The notes below the pieces were generated by a model. The model was given only the letters and a program-made list of their open reading frames with translations, was not told where the DNA came from and made no database searches. The translations under genes and the position numbers were made by a program. Of a DNA stretch of 64,000 nt, positions 46,804 through 56,204 are shown one piece after another. Location of the stretch: NCBI RefSeq assembly GCF_021390595.1, contig NZ_JAJEJR010000001.1:1612001-1676000 (forward strand), written 5' to 3'. Every line of letters starts with the position of its first letter. Within the stretch, counting starts at the first letter, position 1. This stretch comes from Paraburkholderia sp. HP33-1 (lineage in GTDB: Bacteria; Pseudomonadota; Gammaproteobacteria; Burkholderiales; Burkholderiaceae).

Positions 46804-47025
46804 TGGCGCCGCCGTCTGTCACCGGACGTAAGCCGCATGTAACAGTACCGAGCAATTGCAAGACCTGCGGCTTTTGCGCAGATACCAGGCAATACTGCCC
46901 CTAGCGACGATGCACCCGACGCTCAAGCGCGACGTGCATTGATCCAACGTCATGGCGCTGTCATACTCGGCATCGCCGACGGCGCTGCGGTTCGCGCGCC
47001 AGCCGTCGGCTTACGGAGACACAAT

Positions 47026-48093
47026 ATGAAGATTGCGCAGATCGCCCCGCTGACCGAATCGGTGCCGCCGAAGCTTTACGGCGGCACTGAGCGCGTCGTG
47101 TCGTACATCACTGAAGCGCTGGTCGAGCAGGGCCATGACGTGACGCTATTCGCGAGCGGCGACTCGGTCACGAGCGCGAAGCTCGAAGCGGTGTGGCCGC
47201 GCGCGCTGCGCCTCGATCCGGGCATTCGCGACCGCATCGCGCCGCATATGCTGCTGATGGAACTCGTGCGCCGCCAGGCCGAAGATTTCGACGTGCTGCA
47301 TTTTCACCTCGACTACTACTCGTTCTCGGTGTTCAAGCGGCAGGACACGCCGTTCGTCACGACGATGCACGGCCGGCTCGACCTGCCCGAGCAGCAACCG
47401 GTATTCGACACGTTCAACACCGCGCCCGTGATTTCGATTTCAAATGCGCAGCGTCACCCGCTGCCGCAGGCGCGCTGGCTCACCACCGTCTATCACGGCT
47501 TGCCGGAGCAGCTCTATACGCCGCGACCGGTCGAGCAGAAGTACCTCGCGTTTCTCGGCCGGATTTCGCCGGAAAAACGCGTCGATACGGCGATCCGCAT
47601 CGCGGGCCGCTGCGGCTTGCCGATCCGCATCGCCGCCAAGGTCGATGCGGCCGACCGCGAATACTTCGAGCGCGATATCCGGCCGTTGCTCGACCTGCCG
47701 TACGTCGAGTACATCGGCGAGATTGCCGATCATCAGAAAGCCGAGTTTCTGTCGGGCGCGCATGCGCTGCTGTTTCCGATCGACTGGCCGGAGCCGTTCG
47801 GTCTCGTGATGATCGAGGCGATGGCATGCGGCACGCCGGTGATCGCGTTCAATCGCGGCTCGGTGCCCGAAGTGATCGAAGAGGGCTTGACCGGGTTTAT
47901 CGTCGAGGACGAGATCGGCGCGGTGGCGGCCGTCAACCGCCTGCACCTGGTGCCGCGCGCGGGCGTGCGGCGGCGCTTCGAGGAGCGCTTCACATCGCAC
48001 CGGATGGCGCGGGAATATGTGGAGGTGTATCAGTCGGTGATTCGCGCGCAGAAGCGCTCGAGGTTCAAGGTGATCGATTCGTCGGGCGGCTGA
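47026..48093 (+). CDS. Glycosyltransferase family 4 protein
   Basis: 355-residue GT-B transferase. The N-terminal acceptor half begins MKIAQIAPLTESVPPKLYGG. The C-terminal donor half has YLAFLGRISPEKRVDTAIRI and the EX7E-like motif PEPFGLVMIEAMACGTPVIA. It lies 222 bp after otsA and before a strong terminator. Such GT4 proteins make glycolipids, glycogen-like or trehalose-related products; nothing in the sequence fixes the acceptor. Confidence 0.85.
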   Translation: MKIAQIAPLTESVPPKLYGGTERVVSYITEALVEQGHDVTLFASGDSVTSAKLEAVWPRALRLDPGIRDRIAPHMLLMELVRRQAEDFDVLHFHLDYYSFSVFKRQDTPFVTTMHGRLDLPEQQPVFDTFNTAPVISISNAQRHPLPQARWLTTVYHGLPEQLYTPRPVEQKYLAFLGRISPEKRVDTAIRIAGRCGLPIRIAAKVDAADREYFERDIRPLLDLPYVEYIGEIADHQKAEFLSGAHALLFPIDWPEPFGLVMIEAMACGTPVIAFNRGSVPEVIEEGLTGFIVEDEIGAVAAVNRLHLVPRAGVRRRFEERFTSHRMAREYVEVYQSVIRAQKRSRFKVIDSSGG

Positions 48094-50767: not shown

Positions 50768-51339
50768 CATCGCTCGAAGCGACTTCGTCGTACCTGTAAC
50801 GCCTCGAACTTGGCGCATGCGCGGCGCTCGCATGCGCGCCGGCCGTTGCTTCCATGCGACCGCACATGCGCATCGCCGTCTTTGCGCCGACGCTCGATAT
50901 CGATGATCGGCCAACTATCAAAACGCATTGAAATGCATGCTGATTCGGAAATCGCATTTCGAAACGCTATTCCGTCAGGTTACGCGGTGTTGTGCTTTGC
51001 AATAGACCGATCCGACGCCGGATAAGCGGCAGCTTCTGTTACAGCAATACGTGAATCGACGCAGCGAAACGGACAAGATTGTTTCATTCCGTAACAGATG
51101 TCTAAAGTGTATTCATGCAAAGGTTGGGATGGTATGCTTCGTGCACAAATTTTCCCATGCACGAGTGAGACCTCGTTTTGTGCTTCGCAATAGGGATGAG
51201 CCGCACCACGTGTGGGCGGACTGTTCCGACAAGGCGAACGGACAAAACAAATTTGTGCAACCGAGGGCCGCACGCGGATCGTGAGAATCCGTGGCAGGCT
51301 CAACGCCGCTGCCAGGCCAGGCCGCGTGGAGAAAATCCA
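50768..51339 (+). promoter_or_regulatory. Repeat-rich upstream region of the transposase-derived gene
   Basis: Four repeat pairs are visible. An 11-bp inverted repeat TGCACAAATTT (51142-51152) and AAATTTGTGCA (51249-51259), the latter overlapping the palindrome ACAAATTTGT. An 8-bp inverted repeat TCTGTTAC (51035-51042) and GTAACAGA (51091-51098). A direct repeat TTGTGCTTTGCAATAG (50990-51005) and its one-mismatch copy (51178-51193). A 6-bp dyad CGTGCA/TGCACG (51140-51163). No gene is seen. It looks like a control region, perhaps bound by the product of the gene at 51340. Confidence 0.5.
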
Positions 51340-52587
51340 ATGTTTTTCGATGAACTGAACAACGACGAATGGGCGTTGCTCGCGCCGCTTGTCTCCGACG
51401 AACCGGCCGTCCGTCTGAACCGGCGTGGCCGGCCGCGCGCCGAACCGCGCATCGTGACGAATGCCGTGCTGTGGATTCTGACCACCGGCGAGCCGTGGTC
51501 GAAGCTGCCGGGCCGCTATCCGTCCGGTCCAACGTGCCGCCGCCGCTTTGAAGAATGGCAATTGAACGGCACGCTGCTCGAGATGGTCCGCCTGTTGTCG
51601 CAGCGCGGCCGCACGTTCGCGTACATTCCCCAACCGGCGCCGCCCGTTACGGCCAGACCCGTGGCACCGGTTGCGCAAACCCCGAGCCCGCGCGACGACA
51701 ACGGTCTGCGCGGCGTGTCATGGAAGAGTCCCGAGTCGTGGCAGGCGCCGGGCGTCGCCAGCGCGCTGAGCCAATGGCGCACGGCCGATCCGATCGCCGA
51801 CATCACGCGCCAGTTGTCCGGGCTTCAGCAGGCGGGGTCCGCCCATGCGGGGACCGCCCATGCGGGGTCCGCCCAGACGGCACCCGCGCAGGCGGCGTCC
51901 GCGGCGGGGGCGGTGACGCACGCCGCAGCGGCCGCGGAGCAGGTGGATACGATGAGCGTGACGAATGTCACGCTGCCCGCGCCTGATGCACAGGCCGCAG
52001 CCGACGAACCGCGCCCGTCGCTATCGATGAGCCTCGCGCCGCGCGGCATGGAAGTCGCCGATTCGCGCGGTTATGTGATCTACGTGTTGGTCGAGGAAGT
52101 GCCGGGCGCGATGTATCGCGCGTCGGCGGAGATCATCAGGGACGGCAAGCGCGTCGAGCGCTCCGGCCTCGTCGGTCCGCGCTTCGCGGATGCTCAGCAC
52201 GCGCAGCAGTTCGCGCTTGACTGGGGGCGTCAGTGGATCGATCGCGAGAGCGCAACCGATGCGGCGGCCGCGACGCAGACCCATGCAAGCGCCGAACCCA
52301 TGTCGGCCAACCCTGCGCAGCGATCGGCGGGCCGTCCGTTGCCTGGCTTGCATCATGTGTCGGAACCCACGTCGATCAATAGCATGGCGAATCACGGGGG
52401 AAATCACGGCGCGCCGTTGCACGCGCCGCTGAATCCGTCATTGCATGCACTGCGCGCACCGGTGCGCCGCTATCCGTCCGACTCCGCGAGCACGGGGGGC
52501 GCAGGCACACCCGCGGTGACGACCGAAAGCAGCGCCACGGAGCGCTTTTCGCCCGCCTACAAGGAGCTCATCTCGTACGTGGGATGA
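51340..52587 (+). CDS. Transposase-derived protein (DUF4096 N-terminus) with a disordered linker and C-terminal domain
   Basis: 415 residues. Residues 1-85 are the N-terminal domain of IS5-type transposases: LNNDEWALLAPLVSD, RRGRPRAEPRIVTNAVLWIL, GEPWSKLPGRYPSGPTCRRR. The DDE catalytic domain that should follow is absent. Instead there is a 140-residue Ala/Pro/Gln/Thr linker with a repeated AHAGSAQ-like segment, then an ordered domain near 225-305 (MEVADSRGYVIYVLVEEVPG, ARFADAQHAQQFALDWGRQW in outline), then another disordered tail. No terminal repeats of an IS flank it, and codon use is that of the host, so it is a domesticated protein. A DNA-binding regulatory role for the adjacent exopolysaccharide genes is inferred from position only. 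Confidence 0.75.
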   Translation: MFFDELNNDEWALLAPLVSDEPAVRLNRRGRPRAEPRIVTNAVLWILTTGEPWSKLPGRYPSGPTCRRRFEEWQLNGTLLEMVRLLSQRGRTFAYIPQPAPPVTARPVAPVAQTPSPRDDNGLRGVSWKSPESWQAPGVASALSQWRTADPIADITRQLSGLQQAGSAHAGTAHAGSAQTAPAQAASAAGAVTHAAAAAEQVDTMSVTNVTLPAPDAQAAADEPRPSLSMSLAPRGMEVADSRGYVIYVLVEEVPGAMYRASAEIIRDGKRVERSGLVGPRFADAQHAQQFALDWGRQWIDRESATDAAAATQTHASAEPMSANPAQRSAGRPLPGLHHVSEPTSINSMANHGGNHGAPLHAPLNPSLHALRAPVRRYPSDSASTGGAGTPAVTTESSATERFSPAYKELISYVG

Positions 52588-52644
52588 GCGCCCGGCAGTT
52601 CCCGCGGCCGCTTCACGCGGCCCCAGGTTGCGATCGATCGTGCG

Positions 52645-54216
52645 TCACTGCCGTCCGTACGTATCGTCGAAGCGCACGATATCGTCTTCGCCGAGGTACG
52701 AGCCCGACTGCACCTCGATCATTTCGAGCGGCATCTTGCCCGGGTTTTCGAGGCGGTGCGTGACGCCGAGCGGAATATAGGCCGATTCGTTTTCGGAGAC
52801 GAGAAGGCGTTCGTCGCCGCGCGTGACGAGCGCGGTGCCGCGCACGACGATCCAGTGCTCCGCGCGGTGATGATGCATCTGCAGCGAGAGCCGGGCGCCC
52901 GGTTTCACGACGATGCGCTTGACCTGAAAGCGCTCGCCGGTATCGACGGAATCGTAGTTGCCCCACGGGCGATGCACCTTGCGATGGTTGGCCGCTTCGA
53001 GCCCGCCGTCTTCGCGAATCCGGTTGACGATCTTTTTGACGTCCTGCACGCGCGACCTGTCGGCGACGAGAATCGCATCGGCGGTCTCGACGACGACGAG
53101 ATCCTGCGTACCGACGCAGGCGATCAGGCGTCCATCGGAATGCGCAAAGGTCGAGTTCGCGCCTTCGAACATCACGCGTCCGCGGCTCACGTTGCGATCA
53201 GCGTCCTTCTCGGAGATGTCCCAGATCGCGTCCCACGAGCCGACGTCGGACCAGCCGGCCTCTAGCGGCACGACCACGCCGGGCGCGATGCTCTGATCGC
53301 TGCCGAGCTGCTCCATCACCGCGTAGTCGATCGAATTCGACGGCGAGGCGCTGAACGCATCACGTTGCAGCCGGAAGAAGTCGCCGTCCGACTTGCCGCC
53401 TGTGAAGGCCGCCTCGCACGCTTCGTAAATGGCCGGCTGGAAATGGCGGATCGCTTTGAGCCACGTCGAGGCGCGCATGATGAAGATACCGCTGTTCCAC
53501 CAGTACTCGCGCGATTCGACATAGCGTTGCGCGAGTTCCAGATGCGGCTTTTCGACGAAGCGGTCGAGCCGGTGAGCGACGAGGCGAGCCGTTGATTCGG
53601 CATCCGTAACACCCGGTGTGTCGGCAAGGCCGAGCGGCGCGCCGATGCGGATATAGCCGTAGCCGGTTTCCGGACGCGTCGGCACGATACCCATCGTGAC
53701 GATATGGCCGGCCTCCGCATGCTGCACGCCGGCGGCGACCGCCGCGTGAAAACCTTCAGTGTCGGCGACCGCGTGATCGGCGGGCATCACGACCATAATG
53801 CCGTCCTGGTCTTCCGCGGCGACGGACAAGGCAGCCACCGTCAACGCGGGTCCGGTGTCACGGCCCACGGGTTCGAGTATCAGCCGGCTTGGCTTGCCAC
53901 TTGTGCGCAACTGTTCGGCCGTCGTGAAGCGTTGTTCTTCATTGGCCACGACCACGAGCTGGCCGGCGAGCGGGTAACCGGCTTCGAGCAGGTCGAGACG
54001 GCGGGTCGTCGCTTGCAGCAGCGACTCTTCGCCGAGCAGGCCGATCAGCTGCTTCGGATGCTGCTCGCGCGACATCGGCCACAGACGGGTGCCTGAGCCG
54101 CCCGCGAGAATCACGGGATGAACCTTGAGTTTGACGCTGGTCGCGGTTGAGGACATGGGCGATTGCGCGGGGGTGGGCCGGGTGCCGTTGGGCGTGACCG
54201 GAGCCGTAGCTGACAT
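52645..54216 (-). CDS. bceA: Bifunctional mannose-1-phosphate guanylyltransferase / mannose-6-phosphate isomerase
   Basis: Makes GDP-mannose for exopolysaccharide synthesis. 523 residues, type II PMI-GMP. The N-terminal guanylyltransferase has VILAGGSGTRLWPMSREQHPKQ and FVEKPH. The C-terminal cupin isomerase has RPWGNYDSVDTGERFQVKRI, LQMHHHRAEHWIVV and YIPLGVTHRLENPG. The first 30 residues are Thr/Pro/Ser-rich. RBS GAGGAGAT is strong. It stands on the opposite strand from bceB-H, with which it shares the upstream region. Confidence 0.93.
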   Translation of the reverse strand: MSATAPVTPNGTRPTPAQSPMSSTATSVKLKVHPVILAGGSGTRLWPMSREQHPKQLIGLLGEESLLQATTRRLDLLEAGYPLAGQLVVVANEEQRFTTAEQLRTSGKPSRLILEPVGRDTGPALTVAALSVAAEDQDGIMVVMPADHAVADTEGFHAAVAAGVQHAEAGHIVTMGIVPTRPETGYGYIRIGAPLGLADTPGVTDAESTARLVAHRLDRFVEKPHLELAQRYVESREYWWNSGIFIMRASTWLKAIRHFQPAIYEACEAAFTGGKSDGDFFRLQRDAFSASPSNSIDYAVMEQLGSDQSIAPGVVVPLEAGWSDVGSWDAIWDISEKDADRNVSRGRVMFEGANSTFAHSDGRLIACVGTQDLVVVETADAILVADRSRVQDVKKIVNRIREDGGLEAANHRKVHRPWGNYDSVDTGERFQVKRIVVKPGARLSLQMHHHRAEHWIVVRGTALVTRGDERLLVSENESAYIPLGVTHRLENPGKMPLEMIEVQSGSYLGEDDIVRFDDTYGRQ

Positions 54217-54812: not shown

Positions 54813-56204
54813 ATGCTGAGCGTTCTAGCGAGAATCATCGATATCGCCATGGTCGCGCTCGGCGCGCTGCTGGCCGCGGCTGTGCATAGCGGCAGAGTGG
54901 TCTGGCTCGACGAGATGCAAAGCATGTCGCTCGCGTTCGGCTGCCTGCTCGTGGTGGTGTTCTTCCCTGCGCTCGGCATCTATCAGTCGTGGCGCGGCAA
55001 GCCGCTCTACGATCTGCTCTCGCGTGTGACGGGCGGCTGGCTGATGGTCGAAGTGATCGGCGTGCTGATCAGCTTCAGCGTGCATCGCTCGGACAGCCTG
55101 TCGCGGCTTTGGCTCGTGTACTGGGCGCTCGCGTCGATCGCGCTGCTGGTCGTCACGAAGGTGGTCGTCTATTCGATCCTGCGCGGGCTGCGCCGCGAGG
55201 GCTTCAATCAGCGCGCGGTCGCGATCGTTGGCGGCGCGCCGTACGGACGCTTCCTGATCGAGCAGATGCGCGGCCGTCCCGAAGCGGGTTTCACGCCCGT
55301 GGTCGTGTTCGACGAGGACAGCACGATCAACCACGACGAAAACGCGCCGCCCGCGATCGCGGGCGTGCCGGTCGAGCGCGACTATCAGCGCATGATCCAG
55401 CTCGTGCGGCAGCGCGCGATCCGCGAGTTGTGGCTTGCGCTGCCGATCTCGAAGGAGAAGGCGATCCATCGCTACGTGATGGATCTGCGCAACGACTTCG
55501 TGAACATCCGCTTCATCCCGGACGTCGGCAGCCTGACGCTGTTCAATCAGCCGATGGTCGAGTTGCTCGGCGTGCCTGCGATCAATCTGGCCGCCTCGCC
55601 GATCACCGATCTGCGGGTGCTGCCCAAGCGCGTTTTCGACAGTGTGTTCGCGCTGGGCGCGCTGACCGCGCTCGCGCCGCTGATGCTCGTGATCGCGCTG
55701 ATGGTGAAGCTCAGTTCGCCGGGACCGATATTTTTTCGCCAGCGACGCAAGGGCATCGACGGCCACGAGTTCGAAATCTTCAAGTTCCGCTCGATGAAGG
55801 TCCACACCGAAGCGGCCGGCAAGATCACCCAGGCGACGCGGCGCGATCCGCGCATCACCGCGGTCGGCGCGTTTCTGCGCCGCACGAGCCTCGACGAGCT
55901 GCCGCAGTTCATCAACGTGCTGCGCGGCGAGATGTCGGTGGTAGGTCCCCGTCCGCATGCGCTCGAACACGACGACATCTACAAGGATCTGGTGAAGGGC
56001 TACATGCACCGCTACCGGATCAAGCCGGGCATCACCGGCTGGGCACAGATCAACGGTTATCGCGGCGAAACCGATCGCATCGAAAAGATGATGGGCCGCG
56101 TGAAGCTCGATCTGTACTACATGCAGCACTGGACCTTCTGGCTCGACATCAAGATCGTCGTGCTGACGATGTGGAAGGGCTTCGCGGGCAGCAATGCCTA
56201 TTGA
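54813..56204 (+). CDS. bceB: Undecaprenyl-phosphate glucose phosphotransferase (WcaJ/WbaP type)
   Basis: Starts the repeat unit by moving glucose-1-phosphate from UDP-glucose to undecaprenyl phosphate in the inner membrane. 463 residues. Four N-terminal membrane segments, a cytoplasmic Rossmann-like CoA-binding-type domain (VAIVGGAPYGRFLIEQM), a re-entrant helix near 280-300, then the catalytic domain with FRQRRKGIDGHEFEIFKFRSM, LRRTSLDELPQFINVLRG, MSVVGPRPHA and KPGITGWAQINGYRGET. First gene of the plus-strand bce operon. Confidence 0.95.
   Translation: MLSVLARIIDIAMVALGALLAAAVHSGRVVWLDEMQSMSLAFGCLLVVVFFPALGIYQSWRGKPLYDLLSRVTGGWLMVEVIGVLISFSVHRSDSLSRLWLVYWALASIALLVVTKVVVYSILRGLRREGFNQRAVAIVGGAPYGRFLIEQMRGRPEAGFTPVVVFDEDSTINHDENAPPAIAGVPVERDYQRMIQLVRQRAIRELWLALPISKEKAIHRYVMDLRNDFVNIRFIPDVGSLTLFNQPMVELLGVPAINLAASPITDLRVLPKRVFDSVFALGALTALAPLMLVIALMVKLSSPGPIFFRQRRKGIDGHEFEIFKFRSMKVHTEAAGKITQATRRDPRITAVGAFLRRTSLDELPQFINVLRGEMSVVGPRPHALEHDDIYKDLVKGYMHRYRIKPGITGWAQINGYRGETDRIEKMMGRVKLDLYYMQHWTFWLDIKIVVLTMWKGFAGSNAY

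Follow-up and report, generated by a model that had tools for sequence, protein, structure and literature searches.

Among the transposases of the IS5 family, those with an N-terminal DUF4096 domain are of the IS402/IS427 type. Reuse of a nucleic-acid-binding module from a mobile element for host regulation has been described, in the parts of the reports available to us, for Ner/SfsB and the antitoxin-derived regulators (PMC8987985) and for TldR (PMC13418256), and the available parts of PMC5552954 and PMC9684580 describe a two-tier system, BerB/BerA of Burkholderia cenocepacia, in which a sigma54-dependent regulator gene controls the cluster for an exopolysaccharide (EPS), Bep. The gene considered here encodes a 415-aa protein and lies beside bceA, a gene of the cluster for the EPS cepacian, in a 64,000-nt stretch of the genome of Paraburkholderia sp. 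HP33-1 (the window; "own genome" below is that of this strain). Like the IS5-family transposases, the protein has an N-terminal DUF4096 domain that includes the RGRP core; unlike them, it has no DDE domain that we could find, occupies one fixed locus, has a new linker motif and C-terminal domain, and is preceded by a sigma54-type promoter. It differs from Ner/SfsB, the antitoxin-derived regulators and TldR in that the module was taken from a DDE transposase, where it is the DNA-binding domain, and in that the role in host regulation is putative. The comparison with BerB/BerA extends to the proposed two tiers, but BerA is a CRP/FNR-type protein that responds to cyclic di-GMP and its polymer is Bep, not cepacian. 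The case for domestication of the gene, and for its conserved linkage to bceA, is strong, and we see an even chance that the product is an NtrC/sigma54-controlled, transposase-derived DNA-binding regulator that adjusts bce transcription.

The open reading frame (ORF) runs from an ATG to a TGA as the earlier note had it, and its GC content at third codon positions (0.802 versus 0.796 in bceA) agrees with the host codon use suggested there. In a Pfam scan, residues 6-81 match DUF4096 (PF13340) with 69.8 bits (cut-off 34.3; E 2.4e-19), the same scan detected nothing of the DDE type at E values up to 10, and the alignment to the NCBIfam IS5 transposase model is confined to residues 5-89 (67.9 bits, below the cut-off of 110), confirming both the proposed IS5-type N-terminus and the proposed absence of the nuclease. 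In PHROGs, the N-terminal domain matches solely transposase-type or unknown families. The AlphaFold2 model consists of two confident domains (residues ~1-97 and 236-316) separated by low-confidence sequence, as expected from the disordered linker that had been postulated. The C-terminal domain, which contains GYVIYVLVEEVPG, is predicted to form beta strands and a long helix, with a predicted local distance difference test score mostly >90. It had been described as unassigned, which needs qualification as there is a weak match to DUF6566 (PF20204; 20.8 bits, cut-off 26.7) and PF20204 is precomputed for many among 120 homologues listed. A profile search of PDB sequences returned one match at chance level, DUF6566 is mentioned in none of the papers available for full-text search, two of which mention DUF4096, and six of the seven proteins found with the C-terminal domain as the only query are from contigs of <2 kb, so that no free-standing relative could be learned from them.

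Homologous loci were collected as an 80-locus set, from Paraburkholderia, Burkholderia and Trinickia, and a 50-locus set that includes the own genome; the sets overlap and share genomes. The frame is open, with lengths of 273-507 aa, in all loci of both sets. When 59 protein sequences (the window, 43 of the 49 other loci of the 50-locus set and 15 listed proteins) are aligned, invariant residues are present in both domains, and W128, P131, E132 and W134 of the linker motif are also invariant. An in-frame tandem repeat with a 15-nt unit is present in the linker, at 51829-51903 of the window.

To be more than a curiosity of one strain, the gene should be present in relatives, and a survey of 249 genomes of the family Burkholderiaceae, counted by hand, found the long gene (best E <1e-42) in 77. 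These comprise every genome in which BceB is strongly matched (68 genomes, best E <1e-190) and nine of the 181 others (Fisher p 1.1e-51), with one genome, G179, excluded on both sides of the count; its gene and its partial BceB match (65%) were missed by both thresholds. Some match to the 415-aa protein, in many cases to a short paralogue alone, exists in 161 of the 249 genomes. The gene does adjoin bceA, as had been noted, but the two converge, their ORF ends lying 57 bp apart in the window, and so do not share a promoter. This tail-to-tail arrangement is conserved in 79 of the 80 loci, 20-507 bp apart by the measure of the script used, and 45 of the 49 relatives in the 50-locus set (28/29 plus 17/20) have bceA facing the gene, so the predicted linkage in relatives also holds. 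Five loci depart from this arrangement (L183, L033, L048, L050 and L054); at L054, bceA faces the gene from ~3 kb away and was found further along the contig. The upstream neighbours vary, with genes for YciI and PsiF present at many but not all loci. The own genome has one full-length copy; Paraburkholderia lacunae has a second copy (L183), of 293 aa, that is without the strict sigma54 pattern defined below and without bceA in the stretch fetched. Protein distances between copies of the 415-aa protein parallel those between the BceA proteins (Mantel r 0.97, 79 loci; reached in 0 of 999 permutations). In six pairwise comparisons, the ratio of non-synonymous to synonymous substitution rates (dN/dS) is 0-0.044 for residues 1-97, 0.04-0.45 for the C-terminal domain, 0.24-0.62 for the linker and 0.06-0.64 for the tail; purifying selection on the transposase-derived domain is thus strong. 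Presence with BceB, synteny with bceA, divergence that tracks BceA and purifying selection together argue that the gene has been domesticated; judged from these sequence comparisons, it is vertically inherited and selected and is not a mobile element.

Upstream of the gene, there is a conserved sigma54-type promoter (Table 1). The strict pattern TGG[TC]A[TC]G-N6-GC is present in 77 of the 80 and 49 of the 50 loci, and in 2 of 800 mononucleotide-shuffled upstream sequences; in L161, the GC of the -12 element is altered. A broader pattern, TGGYAYGCTTNNTGCA, occurs in the own genome at the 415-aa gene and at one place in the region of a phosphoenolpyruvate (PEP)-mutase-like ORF. An alternative assignment of TGGTATGCT as an extended -10 box was dropped, as paralogues have TGGCACG...TGC at a similar place. 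The upstream region had been described as rich in repeats; there are no striking direct repeats, but GCAC/GTGC half-sites and dyads form an array that is conserved. When both locus sets were joined, minus L183 and one region without an anchor, the dyad TGTTTC-N5-GTAACA was found 50-52 nt ahead of the -24 element in 117 of the 128 anchored regions, and the own genome contains two exact copies of it, against none for a control. The GCAC-N7-GTGC dyad is positioned at +59/+60 from the -12 GC and is exact in 89 of the 128 regions, with one mismatch in 34 more (shuffled sequences, 12 of 1,290). For comparison, the own genome has three P-II genes, of which L190 (glnK-like) is preceded by GCACAAAAAATGTGC and TGGCACAGGAGTTGC; its GCAC-N7-GTGC dyad is 372 nt upstream and its sigma54 site is 127 nt upstream. 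Neither of the other two genes has both elements.

Table 1. Features of the gene for the 415-aa protein and its surroundings, in window coordinates
Feature	Position	Strand	Basis
Dyad TGTTTC-N5-GTAACA, candidate activator site	51080..51096	+	Upstream of the -24 element
Sigma54-type -24/-12 promoter TGGTATGCTTCGTGCA (GG-N10-GC)	51130..51145	+	~200 nt before the ATG; conserved pattern
Conserved 5' leader	51156..51339	+	Start predicted from the -12 element; 38-sequence alignment, mean column identity 69%
NtrC-like dyad GCAC-N7-GTGC (one mismatch in the window)	51203..51217	+	Conserved position
Second leader hairpin	51274..51292	+	RNAalifold pairing of columns 151-156 with 171-176, including two-sided changes
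Hairpin immediately ahead of the Shine-Dalgarno sequence	51307..51326	+	Covariation
Shine-Dalgarno sequence GGAGA	51328..51332	+	Columns invariant, 38 sequences
Gene for the domesticated DUF4096-DUF6566-like protein	51340..52587	+	ATG start, TGA stop, 415 aa
IS5-type N-terminal (DNA-binding type) domain, residues 1-97	51340..51630	+	PF13340 match; dN/dS 0-0.044 in six pairs
Linker motif GVxWxxPESW, residues 124-134	51709..51741	+	Common to the short paralogue; invariant positions, 59 sequences
Core of the DUF6566-like C-terminal domain, residues 232-302	52033..52245	+	Weak PF20204 match; predicted structure
bceA (mannose-1-phosphate guanylyltransferase / mannose-6-phosphate isomerase), convergent neighbour	52645..54216	-	TIGR01479, 638 bits
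bceB-type undecaprenyl-phosphate glucose phosphotransferase gene	54813..56204	+	TIGR03023, 513 bits

The sigma54-type promoter was not part of the earlier note, nor were the 132-aa paralogue and the NPESW motif that is common to both proteins. The gene for this paralogue (L002, C1:1326692-1327078) is outside the window, on the contig that carries the 415-aa gene but ~337 kb from it. The paralogue resembles the 415-aa protein in having DUF4096, the motif RLRGxFWxNPESW (read as FWTNPESW; the protein of the own genome ends in DRLRGAFWTNPESWRAPVKMA) and a sigma54-type promoter, but has no C-terminal domain, is encoded elsewhere on the chromosome and is far better conserved overall, with identities of 97% in two Burkholderia genomes, 99% in P. 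xenovorans, 96% in Trinickia and ~55% in genus g11. Its promoters, for example TGGCACGCTTCGTGC and TGGCATGCTTGTTGC, conform to the strict pattern ~156-185 nt upstream at 33 of 36 loci, and those of the remaining three, including the own genome, are near variants. As the NPESW motif is outside the DUF4096 match, it suggests that the long and the 132-aa proteins share one domesticated ancestor. A third conserved gene encodes only DUF4096, in 136-150 aa (L003, C1:1355136-1355369, and L201-L203); no sigma54 site was found at these four loci.

The gene has already been noticed in print, as BCAM0853 in B. cenocepacia (PMC5491218) and as Bphy_1055 in P. phymatum (PMC7378592), both sources being available to us in part. 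BCAM0853 is immediately ahead of BCAM0854, the first gene of bce-I, which agrees with the synteny with bceA documented here. In the RNA-seq data of PMC5491218, as far as the text at hand goes, I35_4766/BCAM0853 has a log2 fold change of -4.1, and I35_1398/BCAL1500 one of -5.2, in an ntrC mutant of B. cenocepacia H111; both genes are named 'Transposase and inactivated derivatives'. The mutant makes less EPS and its bce genes are down, sigma54 likewise regulates 95% of the top 150 genes, and sigma54-NtrC-dependent transcription is stated for I35_4766/BCAM0853. A quorum-sensing study (PMC3502180, seen in part) also tabulates BCAM0853, with 3.1 as the first value. BCAL1500 is most likely the 132-aa paralogue, judging by its placement relative to sucA and sucB: sucB is BCAL1516 in B. 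cenocepacia, the paralogue gene is ~20 kb before sucA in a related genome, and the third DUF4096 gene, a few kb after sucA in one Burkholderia genome, is without a sigma54 site. If this assignment is right, the paralogue too is NtrC-dependent in print.

B. cenocepacia H111 requires NtrC and sigma54 to produce cepacian, yet no sigma54 site is recognizable in the divergent promoter region of bce-I at the loci read; the strict pattern is present in the bceA-bceB intergenic region on the bceB strand at 1 of 79 loci and on the opposite strand at 0 of 79. The gene for the 415-aa protein is a good candidate for the missing element that couples slime (cepacian) production to a shortage of nitrogen. 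Nitrogen limitation would act through NtrC, directly or indirectly, on the sigma54-type promoter that we predict, with the dependence taken from the RNA-seq published for BCAM0853, and would raise the level of a protein that combines an IS5-type domain without a DDE nuclease, an NPESW linker and a DUF6566-like domain, and whose gene became fixed in Burkholderia sensu lato in a tail-to-tail position with bceA. This protein most likely binds DNA through its transposase domain and would adjust bce transcription, so passing NtrC/sigma54 control on to bce-I. It may also regulate itself through its own leader, and the C-terminal domain may sense a partner or ligand or make oligomers. A regulatory role in cepacian production is unproven but consistent with the data, and if the protein is a true relay, several genera have put the DNA-binding domain of a transposase to use as a regulator of the host. 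A wider proposal, which we hold tentatively and with less confidence, is that the 415-aa protein and the 132-aa NPESW paralogue form a small family of transposase-derived regulators, switched by NtrC/sigma54, that runs part of the nitrogen-starvation response of Burkholderia sensu lato, the member linked to bceA relaying the signal to cepacian synthesis with its structured leader adding translational control.

The Shine-Dalgarno sequence, which had been judged a good ribosome binding site, is invariant across a 38-sequence leader alignment made from the window and 37 of the 76 distinct leaders of the 80-locus set (every second one, excluding L161); a smaller sample contains the window and 34 of these 37, minus L121, L139 and L172. 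In the hairpin directly before it, 98.9% of cells are paired and two pairs, in 10 cells, are changed on both sides; of 500 shuffles, none reached the covariation score and 51 reached the number of covarying pairs. The stem has one U-C mismatch in the window. As the leader hairpins covary, translational control by the leader is possible, if unproven. RNAalifold also paired a 5' UUCC/CUCC (51152-51155) with GGAG of the Shine-Dalgarno sequence, which we do not believe because this pairing is never changed on both sides and the bases are just before the predicted transcript start. A scan of 50800-51500 with Rfam gave sub-threshold matches only, and a covariance model of the leader end scored 75.4 bits at its own locus in the own genome, with the next match at 20.1 bits (E 0.05).

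Several observations weigh against an NtrC/sigma54-controlled regulator of bce. Nine genomes have the long gene without a strong BceB match (G025, G044, G059, G073, G078, G088, G106, G122 and G242), and at L033, L048 and L050 the gene adjoins one for UDP-glucose dehydrogenase with neither bceA nor bceB in the stretch fetched, so that bce need not be the sole target and the gene can persist without bceA and bceB. In G179 the gene copy is frame-disrupted with the sigma54 pattern still upstream (L210, G179:C24). The NtrC-like dyad is downstream of the promoter, an unusual position for an enhancer, and the stricter TGCACY-N5-RGTGCA, with two places in the own genome, is there no commoner than a reversed control and was not found at the 415-aa gene. 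Shared regulation alone could also keep the gene and bceA together. This is the core of a rival that we regard as unlikely but the strongest of those considered, in which the protein is domesticated and under NtrC/sigma54 control but has its targets elsewhere, forming with the 132-aa paralogue a pair of nitrogen-stress proteins that bind the chromosome, while the linkage to bceA reflects only shared regulation and inheritance. A paralogue with the same domain, motif and promoter type far from bceA, its 96-99% identity across four genomes of three genera, and the nine genomes above all fit; that the gene nearly always accompanies bceA, and in one orientation, throughout several genera does not. 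It is improbable, in our estimate, that the protein instead acts on RNA or translation, as a possible resemblance of its C-terminal domain to folds of the double-stranded RNA-binding domain or hibernation-factor type and its structured leader might suggest.

The available text of PMC7378592 calls Bphy_1055 a 'transposase A-like protein' and suggests a part in acquisition or transfer of the cluster. Most sources that give the protein any name call it a transposase, as they do proteins of the 132-aa type, and a 12-nt inverted-repeat pair, complementary at 11 of 12 positions, flanks the ORF (51320-51331 and 52611-52622). This pair is, however, not conserved, the best right arm having 2-6 mismatches at 79 loci, much as in shuffled gaps (3-6), and with no DDE domain found, a single full-length copy in the own genome, a fixed place, a vertical signal and purifying selection, a gene that mobilizes the bce cluster, or once delivered it, is very hard to credit; the present data speak against such a role for Bphy_1055, and 'transposase' labels can conceal conserved host genes. 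Least probable is a decaying remnant retained near bceA by chance. Fast evolution of the linker and tail (dN/dS 0.06-0.64) and the disrupted copy in G179 are what decay would produce, but it is refuted by conservation, of the reading frame at every locus of both sets, of invariant residues in both domains, and of promoter and Shine-Dalgarno sequence.

The frame disruption in G179 is either a real loss or an assembly error. The other exact copy of TGTTTC-N5-GTAACA in the own genome (L207, C1:3331320-3331336) is ~110-170 bp before a glycosyltransferase ORF, which resembles an ORF at 46939-48093 of the window.
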